Positions 4,999-51,760 of a DNA stretch of 64,000 nt are shown here, piece after piece. The stretch's first letter is position 1; every line of letters starts with the position of its first letter. Source of the stretch: Petroclostridium xylanilyticum (GTDB taxonomy: Bacteria > Bacillota > Clostridia > SK-Y3); contig NZ_NPML01000007.1 of the NCBI RefSeq assembly GCF_002252565.1, positions 372,001 to 436,000 on the forward strand. Reading direction: 5' to 3'. The notes under the pieces were generated by a model. The model did not search any database, was not told the origin of the DNA, and saw nothing but the letters and a program-made list of their open reading frames with translations. A program made the translations under genes and the position numbers.

Positions 4999-5340
4999 AC
5001 CTACACCTCAATCAGTATTATTATGAAAATAGCTCGGAGTTAAAAGCCACTAAACGTTCGAGCGAGACATGGAAACACACCACTAGTTCGTGAAAATCTT
5101 GCAGTTAGTGCTTTGCGGCGTGGAATGCCTCCAAATCTCACCCTCTTTCGTCGTACTAACATCCGGTTTAGCAGGAAGAAGGGGTGCGACTTGGGGACGG
5201 TTCGTCTGTCGCATGGGGTTTTCATGCGACTGAGGAACTGTCCCCATGTCGAAGCCCTGAACAATCAAGCATATTTTCATCATTTTTTGTGCCGGGCTTG
5301 TCCGGCATGATCGTTAATAGTATAGAAATAAGTTACAATA
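4999..5340. other. Intergenic region fliE-fliF with R1 repeat
   Basis: 342 bp inside the flagellar operon with no credible gene. Roughly 5162-5309 is repeat R1 copy A. The remaining 5000-5160 is unique sequence, moderately GC-rich compared with its surroundings; short frames crossing it are translations of the repeat and are not supported as genes. Confidence 0.7.
5162..5309 (-). repeat. R1 modular hairpin repeat, copy A
   Basis: Read on the minus strand it shows, in order, a small GC hairpin (GCCGGACAAGCCCGGC), the phrase ATGATGAAAATATGCTTGATTG, a long imperfect palindrome opening GGGGACAGTTCCTCAGTCGC and closing GACGAACCGTCCCC, and TCCTGCTAAACCGGA. The same modules recur at 20664-20854, 33117-33353 and 50747-50927. 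The right-hand flank here differs from other copies, so the element is modular. It is the only copy in this orientation. Confidence 0.85.
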
Positions 5341-6114: not shown

Positions 6115-6528
6115 CTATCTGCCTCCATCTTTAATAACTGTTTTTAAACCGTTAAACTGCCTGGCTAATTGCTGGACAACGGCATTATAGTATATATTAT
6201 TTTTTGCCAGTAATGCCATTTCCGCATCTATATCTACATTGTTTTTATCCATTCTCATTTGACTTCCGGTGCGGTCTTCCTGTATTTTAATTGGTATATT
6301 TCTGGCAGGCTGCCTTCCAATAGGGATATGCTTGTCATGCGTTCTATATCCTTCAATCTTTTTTTTATCCAGAGCTTCTGCCAGAAAATTTTCAAACTCA
6401 ACAATCTGCCGTTTATACCCTGGAGTATCTACATTTGCCAGGTTATTGGAAATCGCTTCATTTCTTAACCATGCAGCGTCCAAAGCCCTTTCCAATATCG
6501 AAGTGTTGTTAAAAATCCTAATACCCAC
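6115..6528 (-). CDS. flgB: Flagellar basal-body rod protein FlgB
   Basis: 137 residues, first gene of the flagellar operon. Rod subunit with the SNNLANVDTPGYKR N-terminal signature and an ALLAKNNIYYNAVVQQLARQF C-terminal helix. Start is GTG at 6528 behind AGAAGGTGAAAAT. The leader upstream holds a 16-bp perfect stem-loop and, further up, two promoter candidates, one inside repeat R3. Confidence 0.96.
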   Translation of the reverse strand: MGIRIFNNTSILERALDAAWLRNEAISNNLANVDTPGYKRQIVEFENFLAEALDKKKIEGYRTHDKHIPIGRQPARNIPIKIQEDRTGSQMRMDKNNVDIDAEMALLAKNNIYYNAVVQQLARQFNGLKTVIKDGGR

Positions 6529-6557
6529 ATTTTCACCTTCTATATCTTATAGTTTTA

Positions 6558-6640
6558 TAATTAACCAACTTTAAAACTAAATATTGTGATTTTAAAGTTG
6601 GTTAATTTCATCGATAACCACATTAATTTATTTTAACTTT
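6558..6640 (-). promoter_or_regulatory. Conserved leader element (stem-loop plus GTTATCGATGAAAT), flgB copy
   Basis: On the minus strand: AAGTTAAAATAAATTAATG, then GGTTATCGATGAAAT, then a 16-bp perfect stem (plus-strand arms 6561-6576 and 6590-6605) 33 nt before the flgB start. The same arrangement occurs at 17081-17195 and 57880-57942, with compensatory changes in the stem. Could be an RNA regulatory structure or a dispersed palindromic repeat. The GTTATCGATG part has a weak likeness to a flagellar sigma-28 -10 box (CGAT core, TAAA 16 nt upstream). Confidence 0.5.
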
Positions 6641-6644
6641 TTTT

Positions 6645-6765
6645 TATATATTTACTGATAATAATTTCACATGGCAGATAAAGTCAATAAGTTCACGGTT
6701 CACAATAAAAGCTATCCAATCGTTTACTACTGTGAACTGTTAACCGTGAACTGTGAACCATATAG
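6645..6765 (-). repeat. R3 GTGAAC hairpin element, long form, copy 1
   Basis: About 120 bp that recur in reverse orientation at 24270-24397. Contains heptamers of the GTGAACY type on one arm and their complement on the other, so the whole element folds into a long hairpin around CGTTTACT. Its inner end carries TTGACT and TATTAT promoter boxes. It appears to interrupt the conserved leader element upstream of flgB: the phrase ATATCGATAA...AATATTAAAG precedes it and GTTAAAATAAATTAATG follows it, whereas these are contiguous at 17150-17200. Confidence 0.75.
6658..6687 (-). promoter_or_regulatory. Promoter for flagellar operon, carried by repeat R3
   Basis: TTGACT (plus-strand complement at 6682-6687), 18-bp spacer, TATTAT (6658-6663): five of six matches in each box. 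It would start transcription near 6651, giving a leader of about 120 nt before flgB. The boxes lie inside repeat R3, which is also present at 24.3 kb. Confidence 0.55.
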
Positions 6766-6768
6766 CTT

Positions 6769-7058
6769 TAATATTAATTATCGATATATTGATATAGATT
6801 AATATTAAATTTCATCGCACAATTTGATATTACCTATGCATGACTACCAGTTAATATATTCGACAAATGCTTTCGTATTCCTTCAAAAATCGCTATATTT
6901 TTTTTAACTTTTGTTATTAATTCCATTAATTATCATGATACATAATTTTTAAATTATTGTAAAGAAAGAAATTGTTAAATTATTTAGTTCTTATTGCCTA
7001 TATGATTAGGACCTTTTTACTATTTTTTATTTTTGCTTTTAAGCAAGCTTATTTTTTG
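6769..7058. other. AT-rich intergenic region upstream of flgB
   Basis: About 290 bp with no plausible gene. It contains a partial second occurrence of the CGATGAAAT phrase (about 6815-6825, minus strand), the promoter candidate at 6935-6963, and otherwise AT-rich sequence. No codY, hslUV or xerC gene lies between trmFO and flgB, although these often do in Bacillus and some clostridia. Confidence 0.6.
6935..6963 (-). promoter_or_regulatory. Second promoter candidate upstream of flgB
   Basis: TTTACA (complement at 6958-6963), 17-bp spacer, TATCAT (6935-6940); each box matches consensus at five of six positions. It would give a leader of about 400 nt running through R3 and the stem-loop element, and may be the ancestral operon promoter. 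Confidence 0.45.
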
Positions 7059-17080: not shown

Positions 17081-17195
17081 TTATAATGAGCAAAGTTTAA
17101 AATTCAATATTTCCTTAATACAAACTTCGCAAATTTCATCGATAACTACATTAATTTATTTTTAACTTTAATATTGGTTATCGATATTTTAATGA
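17081..17195 (-). promoter_or_regulatory. Conserved leader element, CBM25-gene copy
   Basis: Minus strand: ATATCGATAACC...AATATTAAAG, TTAAAAATAAATTAATG, TAGTTATCGATGAAAT, then an imperfect stem (GCGAAGTTT with AAACTTTGC) and CATTATAA. The two ATCGATAAC/GTTATCGAT segments can also pair. Same architecture as 6558-6640 and 57880-57942 but with a different stem sequence. Ends 82 nt before the start codon. Confidence 0.5.
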
Positions 17196-17285
17196 ATCGA
17201 ATTTAGATTTTAGCAGGCAATATGGACGGTCCTGATATTCCCAAGACATCTCATCGAAAAATCAAATTTAATTTGGGCATAGAAA

Positions 17286-17432: not shown

Positions 17433-17525
17433 CGTATATTTTATTTTTGAAGAATATTATTCCAGGCTCTAAGCCTTTCCGCAACGTTCTTTCCATAATA
17501 TTCTTCAAAAATATTAAATGCGCCC
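17433..17525 (-). repeat. R2 palindromic element, copy a
   Basis: Terminal inverted arms TTTGAAGAATATTAT (17446-17460) and ATAATATTCTTCAAA (about 17496-17509) around the core AGGCTCTAAGCCTTTCC, GCAACGTTC. Lies 15 bp after the stop of the ECF gene. Other copies at 38767-38860, 49463-49707 and 51696-51760. Confidence 0.85.
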
Positions 17526-20273: not shown

Positions 20274-20654
20274 GTGAGGGCTTTTAAAATTTCAATTGCA
20301 CTTTTAATTACTATTATCCTAGGGTCTATTGTATATATTTATTGGCTAAATACTACTTCAAATAACCTCCTATCAAAAATAGATAAGTTAGAGGACGCAG
20401 TTCAATCCAATAACTGGAGTGCTGCAGAAAAACAACTTGATGATATTCAAAAAGGATGGGAAAAAACAGAAAAATGGATGACGACTTTAATTGACCATCA
20501 AGAAATTGATGCAATCAAGATAACGCTTGCTAAACTCTCTCAGTATGTGCATTATAAAGAAGTTGCAGACTTTATGGCAGAAAGTGCAACATTAAAATTA
20601 CTGATTAAACATATACCTGGCAAGGAAAAAATAAATCTGTCTAATTTGTTTTAA
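20274..20654 (+). CDS. DUF4363 family protein
   Basis: 126 residues from a GTG start with GAGGAGGAATAAAA upstream. One N-terminal transmembrane helix (ISIALLITIILGSIVYIYWL) and an extracytoplasmic helical domain with WSAAEKQLDDIQKGWEKTEKWM. The DUF421-DUF4363 pair is conserved in clostridia and suggests that the two proteins act together in the membrane. Function unknown. Confidence 0.85.
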   Translation: MRAFKISIALLITIILGSIVYIYWLNTTSNNLLSKIDKLEDAVQSNNWSAAEKQLDDIQKGWEKTEKWMTTLIDHQEIDAIKITLAKLSQYVHYKEVADFMAESATLKLLIKHIPGKEKINLSNLF

Positions 20655-20663
20655 ACAAATATA

Positions 20664-20854
20664 GGCTTTGACATGGGGACGGTTCCTCAGTCGCATGAAA
20701 AGCGCATTCGACAGACGAACCGTCTCCAAGCCGCATCCCTTCTTCGGGCACACCCGGCACAAATAATGATAAAAATATGCTAAACCGGACTTTTTTAGTG
20801 GTTTCGGTTTTACTCCCCACTCCTCACTGCCCACTCCCAACTATTTGCATATTA
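20664..20854 (+). repeat. R1 modular repeat, copy B (rearranged module order)
   Basis: Order here is palindrome module (GGGGACGGTTCCTCAG ... GACGAACCGTCTCC), then the GGGCACACCCGGCACAA module, then TAAACCGGACTTTTTT and a CCCCACT-type tract. In copies C and D the CACACCCGGC module precedes the palindrome. Fills the gap between the convergent DUF4363 and HAD genes. Confidence 0.85.
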
Positions 20855-24163: not shown

Positions 24164-24516
24164 ATATATTCCTCCAACCGTTATAGTCTATTTATATGTA
24201 TATATATTCAATATATGGTGATCAAAATCCTTCTTTTTCTGACAAAATTCTTAAATCCGAAAATCACAACTATATGGTTCACAGTTAACAGTTCTCAGTT
24301 CACAGCAGTAAACGATTGAATAGCTTTTACTGTGAACCGTGAACTGTGAACTTATTGACTTTATCTGCCATGTAAAATCATTATCAGTAAATATATATAT
24401 AATACTAATTAAATGAATGTATATAGAACGAATGGAAAAATAATCTATACTTATTTTATAATTAACTGGCAGTTTAAAGATATAGGTAATTAGTCCCGAG
24501 AAGTTTGAGAAATATT
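24164..24516. other. Intergenic region with R3 repeat
   Basis: Apart from the R3 copy (24270-24397) this AT-rich stretch contains no gene-like frame. The promoter boxes of R3 here (TTGACT...CATTAT, plus strand) point toward the terminator at 24517-24553 and so probably make no useful transcript. Confidence 0.6.
24270..24397 (+). repeat. R3 GTGAAC hairpin element, long form, copy 2
   Basis: Reverse-complement partner of 6645-6765, matching from CTATATGGTTCACAG to TTATCAGTAAATATATA with a few substitutions. Arms consist of GTGAACC/T units. Confidence 0.75.
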
Positions 24517-33116: not shown

Positions 33117-33353
33117 ATATTAACTGCCACGCCGGGCACACCCGGCACAAATAATGATGAAAATATGCTTGATTGCTCAGGGCTTCGACATGGGGACGGT
33201 TCCTCAGTCGCATGAAAAGCGCATTCGACAGACGAACCGTCCCCAAGTCGCATCCCTTCTTCCTGCTAAACCGGACTTTTTCTGTGGTTTCGGTTTTACT
33301 CCCCACTCCCCACTGTTCACTCCCTACTATTTTTATATTAACTGCCACGCCGG
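33117..33353 (+). repeat. R1 modular repeat, copy C, flanked by 19-bp direct repeats
   Basis: Complete arrangement: GCCGGGCACACCCGGCACAA module, TTGATTGCTCAGGGCTTCGA, palindrome GGGGACGGTTCCTCAG...GACGAACCGTCCCC, CTTCTTCCTGC, then TAAACCGGACTTTTTCTGTG and CCCCACT tract. The phrase ATATTAACTGCCACGCCGG occurs at both ends (33117-33135 and 33335-33353), and is followed by a decayed second copy of the first module. Nearly identical to copy D at 50.8 kb. Confidence 0.9.
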
Positions 33354-38766: not shown

Positions 38767-38860
38767 GGCGCATATTCTTTATTTGAAGAATATTATGGAA
38801 GGAACGTTGCGGAAAGGCTTAGAGCCTGTTAATCATATTCTTCAAATATATTAAATGCCC
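38767..38860 (+). repeat. R2 palindromic element, copy b
   Basis: ATTTGAAGAATATTATGGAA arm, core AACGTTGCGGAAAGGCTTAG, closing arm AATCATATTCTTCAAAT. Begins 3 bp after the PBP2 stop and fills the PBP2-minC gap. Confidence 0.85.
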
Positions 38861-49462: not shown

Positions 49463-49707
49463 GTGCATTTTCTAAATTAAATCTGAAGAATATTATTCCA
49501 ATAACAGGAGTTCCAAGGCTAAGAGCTTGTAAACTTGCGTCTAAGGTCAGGGGACACACCTCTCCTTCGTCGAGGAATGTCCCCAATAAAGGCATCAAAC
49601 TCGCTGCCGCTCAAACAGGTGATGCGACTTCTCCTCCGCTGCGTTAACAAGCTCTAAGCCTTTCCACAACGTTCTTTCCATAATATTCTTCAAATCTAAA
49701 ATATACG
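49463..49707 (-). repeat. R2 palindromic element, copy c, with internal hairpin insert
   Basis: Terminal arms TCTGAAGAATATTATTCCA and CCATAATATTCTTCAAAT as in other copies, but they are about 200 bp apart. The inside contains GGGGACACACCTCTCC and GAGGAATGTCCCC, a GGGGAC...GTCCCC palindrome of the R1 kind, and two AGAGCTTG/CAAGCTCT segments. Overlaps the stop codon of the phosphomutase-like gene. Confidence 0.8.
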
Positions 49708-50598
49708 CCTTTCATAATCGGTCAGGGCTAAGCTAAAAACTCTAATAATTGCCGGACTAATATCTACCAGTGAAGTAATTCCTTCCACAAATATTTCAGC
49801 ACATTTGCCATGTACAATTGTAGGTACTTTGTTAAAGGTGTGGGTTTTCACGGATAGATCCTCTATATTGCCATGATCACTGGTAATCACTAATAAAGTA
49901 TTTGTATAATCTATGATCTTATCCAATTTACCTAAAAATCTATCTAAAATCTCTAATACCTCTTCACTCTTTTCTCTCTCCTGCTTATGCCCTATTATAT
50001 CAGTCATGAAGTATTCAAAAAATGTAAAGTCATACTCCTGGGATATATTGAATAATATCTGTGCAGCTGACTCAGGTTCAATAAGGGATACTTCGTACCC
50101 GCTTTCTATCAATATCTTATTAATTATATCATGATAAATCCCTCTGCCATGCTTTAAATCTTCTACAGTCCGAAAAGTTATCCCCGCAGCCATACAGGCA
50201 ACAGTAGACGCTGAAGGCCTCAATTTTCTACTCTTAGGGTTGTTAATCTGCTGCAAATACTGCTCTCTATATACATTGGCATTTGTAACTTTTACATTCA
50301 TTTCTTTTAGTATTTTAAAAAGACTATGTTTATATAATAATTTTTTTAAAGTAATGGTGGGCTGCCCGTGTAAATGCCTTCCCAGTACCTGTGGTGCATT
50401 TATTCCCGTGAGAATAGCCGTCTGACCCGTGGCACTTTGCGGTAATCCTTCCACACCTAAAGTCGTATCAGTAGGAATTACAATATATTCAGCCATCATT
50501 TTACGTATATTAGGTATATTGGCACTATATAATGGGTTTATCTGTACCTCTTCCCTTCCCAGCCCAAAACCGTCAATAAAGATAAATACAACCTTCAT
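49696..50598 (-). CDS. Alkaline-phosphatase-superfamily metalloenzyme (phosphomutase-like)
   Basis: 300 residues. VFIFIDGFGLG at the N-terminus with the first metal Asp, SATGQTAILTGINAP with the probable nucleophile Thr/Ser region, and SDHGNIEDLSVKTHTFNKVP with C-terminal metal ligands: the pattern of phosphoglycerate mutase/phosphopentomutase-like metalloenzymes. Smaller than true iPGM (about 510 residues) and lacks its domain insert, so substrate is unknown. The last codons and stop lie in repeat R2. Confidence 0.82.
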   Translation of the reverse strand: MKVVFIFIDGFGLGREEVQINPLYSANIPNIRKMMAEYIVIPTDTTLGVEGLPQSATGQTAILTGINAPQVLGRHLHGQPTITLKKLLYKHSLFKILKEMNVKVTNANVYREQYLQQINNPKSRKLRPSASTVACMAAGITFRTVEDLKHGRGIYHDIINKILIESGYEVSLIEPESAAQILFNISQEYDFTFFEYFMTDIIGHKQEREKSEEVLEILDRFLGKLDKIIDYTNTLLVITSDHGNIEDLSVKTHTFNKVPTIVHGKCAEIFVEGITSLVDISPAIIRVFSLALTDYERRIF

Positions 50599-50969
50599 GA
50601 TTATCCGTTTTTACCCTCCAATGATAATATTCTTCATCCGGATAAGTACCATCATATATTGCATGTTCTTCCTTCGGCCTATATTGGTATTCATGCGGAC
50701 AAAGACGCATTGTTCCACCCGCAGAGTTTCGAGGCATGGCTCAAGACACAAATAATGATGAAAATATGCTTGATTGCTCAGGGCTTCGACATGGGGACGG
50801 TTCCTCAGTCGCATGAAAAGCGCATTCGACAGACGAACCGTCCCCAAGTCGCATCCCTTCTTCCTGCTAAACCGGACTTTTTCTGTGGTTTCGGTTTTAC
50901 TCCCCACTCCCCACTATTTTTATATTAATCTTTAATGCTATTTATATATATTACGTGAATAAATATTTA
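50599..50969. other. Intergenic region with R1 copy D
   Basis: 371 bp without a credible gene. The first 140 bp are unique sequence; 50747-50927 is R1 copy D. Long frames across it (for example on the plus strand 50659-50928) are translations of the repeat. Confidence 0.7.
50747..50927 (+). repeat. R1 modular repeat, copy D
   Basis: From CACAAATAATGATGAAAATATGC through the palindrome to CCCCACTATTTTTATATTA it is practically identical to copy C, but the leading CCGGGCACACCCGG hairpin is absent and the left flank is different. Confidence 0.9.
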
Positions 50970-51695: not shown

Positions 51696-51760
51696 GGGCG
51701 TATATTTTTTAGTTGAAGAATATTATGGAAAAAACGTTGCGAAAAGGCTTAGAGCCTGAC
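51696..51760 (+). repeat. R2 palindromic element, copy d (one arm missing)
   Basis: GCGTATATTTTTTAGTTGAAG arm, ATATTATGGAA, and core AACGTTGCGAAAAGGCTTAG AGCCTG; the second arm present in copies a-c is missing, replaced by the hisF coding sequence. Confidence 0.8.

Follow-up and report, generated by a model that had tools for sequence, protein, structure and literature searches.

We identified two nested repeats, R3 and R4, in the leader of the flgB flagellar operon of the window (the whole 64,000-nucleotide stretch of DNA analysed here). The best explanation, to which we assign a probability of about 0.8, is that ordinary insertions of MITE-like elements, one inside the other, lengthened the flgB leader below an intact ancestral promoter, and that any effect on the operon would more probably be exerted after transcription initiation than through a new promoter. 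Three counterpoints to the nested-insertion reading are that no partner transposase with matching ends was found, that the ends of R3 are weak, and that none of the 48 copies compared matches a promoter better than the one at flgB. The features concerned are as follows.

6115-6528, minus strand: flgB open reading frame, with its start at 6528
6556-6640, plus strand: flgB-proximal part of R4, 98% identical to the R4 consensus, with hairpin 1 at about 6560-6607
6645-6764, minus strand (the strand of the candidate promoter): R3, a MITE-like element inside R4, with TATATA at both ends and a duplicated TA
6658-6687, minus strand: candidate promoter TTGACT-N18-TATTAT inside R3, a 10/12 match
6765-6788, plus strand: distal part of R4, beyond R3, from the empty-site alignment
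6857-6867, minus strand: TTTGTCGAATA, a Spo0A-box-like motif, invariant in four genera and downstream of the ancestral promoter
6935-6963, minus strand: ancestral flgB promoter TTTACA-N17-TATCAT, with conserved counterparts in the alignment to G001, G002 and Petroclostridium sp. X23
17082-17187, plus strand: uninterrupted copy of R4 (the "contiguous leader" of the original prediction)
24271-24397, plus strand: second R3 copy of the window, inverted, with boxes TTGACT/CATTAT

R3 is 120 bp long and is repeated far beyond chance. The original prediction had treated it as a two-copy repeat; similarity and pattern searches found about 53 copies in the 3.86 Mb clostridial genome (G000), which falls within the family of Petroclostridium, comprising 49 distinct copies after deduplication and four more recognized by their end sequence or by their position beside an R4 copy. 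The copies were collected by these searches and from a limited number of genome stretches, in an assembly of 41 contigs. They are about 78 to 99% identical to a consensus that starts with TATATATTTACTGATAATGATTTTACATGGCAGATAAAGTCAATA, continues with GTGAACT-type heptads forming a palindrome, and finishes with GTGAACTATATA. Length differences between copies are whole 7-nt units. The number of these units varies, for example at L021, L174 and L261, which suggests slippage within the palindromic arms; Petroclostridium X23 also has matches to R3 that consist of heptads only. Among the 49 copies checked, 48 were clear of genes. The R3 core 21-mer was absent from all 290 other genomes sampled in the class, and apart from a single 81-bp piece in G001, R3 is almost confined to G000.

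The short length of R3 (below about 600 bp), its many dispersed copies and its TA target-site duplication are all characteristic of MITEs. Its ends, TATATATTTACTG and TATATAGTTCACAG, form short and imperfect repeats in which the exact inverted match is TATATA only, and the 41-contig assembly yielded no autonomous partner with matching ends, only degraded fragments of IS630-type (DDE_3) transposases. R3 is likely a lineage-specific, TA-flanked, MITE-like element, although the weakness of its terminal repeats and the failure to find a partner transposase leave the MITE label incomplete. One locus, L266 (G000:C29:261800-268200), carries degraded IS630-type transposase fragments with no R3 ends nearby; these fragments are candidates for the remnants of a TA-targeting transposon.

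R4 is about 105 bp long, with two hairpins and TATA at each end. G000 has about 40 or more copies of it and the related genus G001 at least 40, and many unrelated genes adjoin these copies. R3 had been described as interrupting a leader that is contiguous at 17150-17200. Contiguous sequence does exist there, around 17132-17187, but it belongs to the dispersed repeat R4; because R4 adjoins so many unrelated genes, the likeness between 6594-6641 and 17122-17169 is repeat homology and does not point to a common flagellar leader. The ATCGATAAC motif is part of R4, and its interpretation as a sigma-28 site was rejected on that ground.

Seven of the approximately 53 R3 copies lie within R4 copies (at flgB, L016, L018, L026, L174, L182 and L265). 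When R3 was replaced by one TA in an empty-site test, a gapless R4 was restored at L016, L018, L026 and L182; R3 therefore duplicates TA on insertion. At the flgB locus the restored R4 keeps 10 extra bases between the R4 homology and the R3 insertion point. The nested order of the sequence indicates that R4 entered the flgB leader first and that R3 was inserted later into that R4 copy. As R4 makes up only about 0.1% of the genome, seven of 53 is far above uniform expectation. The excess is likely to reflect either a preference shared by both elements for AT-rich intergenic DNA with TA sites or a tolerance of insertion at such places. The duplicated TA, the restored empty sites and the absence of R3 from the flgB leaders of relatives support the earlier proposal that R3 is mobile and was inserted here.

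The FlgB protein is 79% identical to that of G001 and 65% identical to that of Petroclostridium sp. X23. Two blocks, CTTTACAA and TTATGTAT(C/T)AT, are common to the flgB upstream regions of the window, G001, G002 and X23, with equal spacing. This conservation in four genera strongly supports the suggestion that the distal promoter predates the candidate in R3. Located 60-80 nt downstream of it, TTTGTCGAATA is unchanged in the same four genomes; G004 retains this motif as well and G005 has a version altered at one position, the distal promoter being clearly kept in neither. We take TTTGTCGAA to resemble a Spo0A box. In several other clostridial genomes TTGTCGAA precedes flgB, at 8 of 77 loci where shuffles would give 1.2 matches. 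These observations, which concern the window and loci L062, L064, L065, L066 and L091, suggest that Spo0A may control the flagellar operon directly.

The predicted flgB leader is about 130-180 nt long in X23 and G002, which lack the repeats, and about 400 nt long in the window because R4 and R3 sit between the Spo0A-like motif and the gene. Neither repeat is present in the leaders of relatives; that of G001 contains another repeat instead.

The candidate promoter that drew attention to this region is present as described, upstream of flgB on the minus strand at 6687-6658 within the 120-bp repeat. An inverted copy said to carry the same boxes was also found, but its boxes are TTGACT and CATTAT, as in about half of the copies. 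It is possible, though in our judgement unlikely, that R3 brought a proximal promoter to flgB, or evolved one after insertion, which operates alongside or instead of the ancestral promoter, with its start site downstream of the Spo0A-like motif. Promoter-bearing MITEs are known, for example the Correia elements (PMC10969869), and the flgB copy, with its 10/12 match, is the best of the 48 R3 copies that retain the relevant end and the only one to reach this score. The match requires, however, that the -10 box has changed from C to T: 42 of the 48 copies have CATTAT there and two have TATTAT. The -35 box is TTGACT in 25 copies and TTTACT in 17. No base of the 48-nt block varies more than the G of TTGACT, which 26 of 48 copies have. 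The boxes are thus not the constrained part of the R3 family. A 10/12 match was also obtained in 6.4% of dinucleotide shuffles of R3, and such matches occur in the window at 0.42 per kb per strand; the promoter match at the flgB copy is at chance level.

The orientation of R3 also fails to favour a promoter. Between co-directional genes, 18 copies point with the genes and 18 against them. In 29 of 49 copies the neighbouring gene on the promoter side is directed away from R3; for the neighbour on the other side the figure is 28 of 48. Simple open reading frame picks served as the gene calls in these counts and are adequate for orientation. The lack of bias among the 49 copies argues against R3 generally working as, and being kept for, a promoter, and the ancestral promoter is intact. 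Taken with the unconstrained boxes and the rarity of the required -10 change, these results do not support the claim that R3 brought a new promoter with it. A narrower version, in which a MITE lacking a conserved promoter was turned into a promoter at flgB by the single base change, would place a second start past the Spo0A-like motif and free motility from that control; we consider it more improbable still.

The leader folds better than shuffled sequences (z -3.7), and its stems are not followed by a T-run and are not terminator-like. An Rfam search of the leader gave no match at the gathering score. A known RNA or riboswitch was rejected; the weak mir-type Rfam matches correspond to the R4 hairpin and fall far below the gathering score. 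In Clostridioides difficile, the flgB operon is controlled after initiation within a long leader, and the switch in that leader contains no functional promoter (PMC7446863). The flagellar switch of that organism resembles R3 in being a DNA segment in a long flgB leader, with a sigma-A promoter on one side and the gene on the other (PMC7446863), but R3 is a dispersed repeat beside many genes, and its inner segment has one orientation in 49 of 49 copies in the one assembly examined, so that an invertible flagellar switch was rejected. That R3 and R4 are a selected regulatory leader of the flagellar operon, a switch or attenuator comparable to that of C. difficile, is the least probable of the explanations considered: their placement between promoter and flgB, the high degree of structure and the C. 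difficile precedent would fit it, but the inner inversion is absent, many unrelated genes adjoin the copies, relatives lack the repeats or carry another, and the stems have neither an Rfam match at the gathering score nor a T-run.

We therefore return to nested insertion as the preferred explanation. As the sequence shows, a non-autonomous R3 that targets TA inserted into an R4 copy already present in the leader of the flgB operon. The operon would still be served by the sigma-A-type promoter at 6935-6963, which is conserved and presumably active, with transcription predicted to start near 6928 and to run through R4-R3-R4. From the computed distances and fold, the insertions lengthened the leader and added strong hairpins to it. 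An effect on flagellar expression would most likely be mediated by the transcribed leader, through its folding, its stability or transcription elongation, if there is any effect. An effect at the RNA level is plausible because of the post-initiation control in the long C. difficile leader and its switch without a functional promoter; the data fit the absence of any effect just as well.

R3 and R4 are new families of a known kind, the small TA-flanked repeats. The pneumococcal RUP element shares with R3 a length of about 107-120 bp, an AT-rich and noncoding sequence, intergenic copies numbering about 100 or about 50, and insertion at TA (PMC2229807, PMC3049150); nesting of one repeat in another is known from pneumococcus too (PMC3049150, PMC2229807). 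RUP differs in its 9-bp terminal repeats, which resemble those of IS630-Spn1; the searches for R3 gave no partner that shares its ends, and we claim no sequence relation between RUP and R3. The Correia or NEMIS elements of Neisseria are likewise small TA-flanked repeats upstream of genes, for which internal promoter sequences have been proposed (PMC2229807, PMC10969869). Their promoters are part of the element and have demonstrated activity (PMC10969869), in contrast to the candidate boxes of R3, which are not conserved among copies as they would be in a Correia-type element.

Two further repeat families were observed. The third, about 62-67 nt long and ending in AAGGCTTAGAGCCTG, occurs in the window at 17463-17524, 38767-38828, 49648-49709 and 51697-51758. 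It has about 40 copies in G000 and is abundant in G001, G004 and G005 as well. A partial copy of this approximately 62-nt family occupies, in the G001 flgB leader, the same stretch as R4 and R3 in the window. The fourth, about 160-170 nt long, is found at 5162-5319, 20629-20800, 33118-33317 and 50747-50918, often beside ACTCCCCACTCCCCACT runs.

The family of Petroclostridium contains two abundant repeat families, one of them repeatedly inserted in the other, for which we found no description, a literature search for the repeat sequence having returned no relevant paper. Promoter boxes within a high-copy repeat should be compared among its copies before they are called a regulatory gain. The finding also shows that a flagellar leader can accommodate one insertion after another with its promoter and Spo0A-like motif unchanged.
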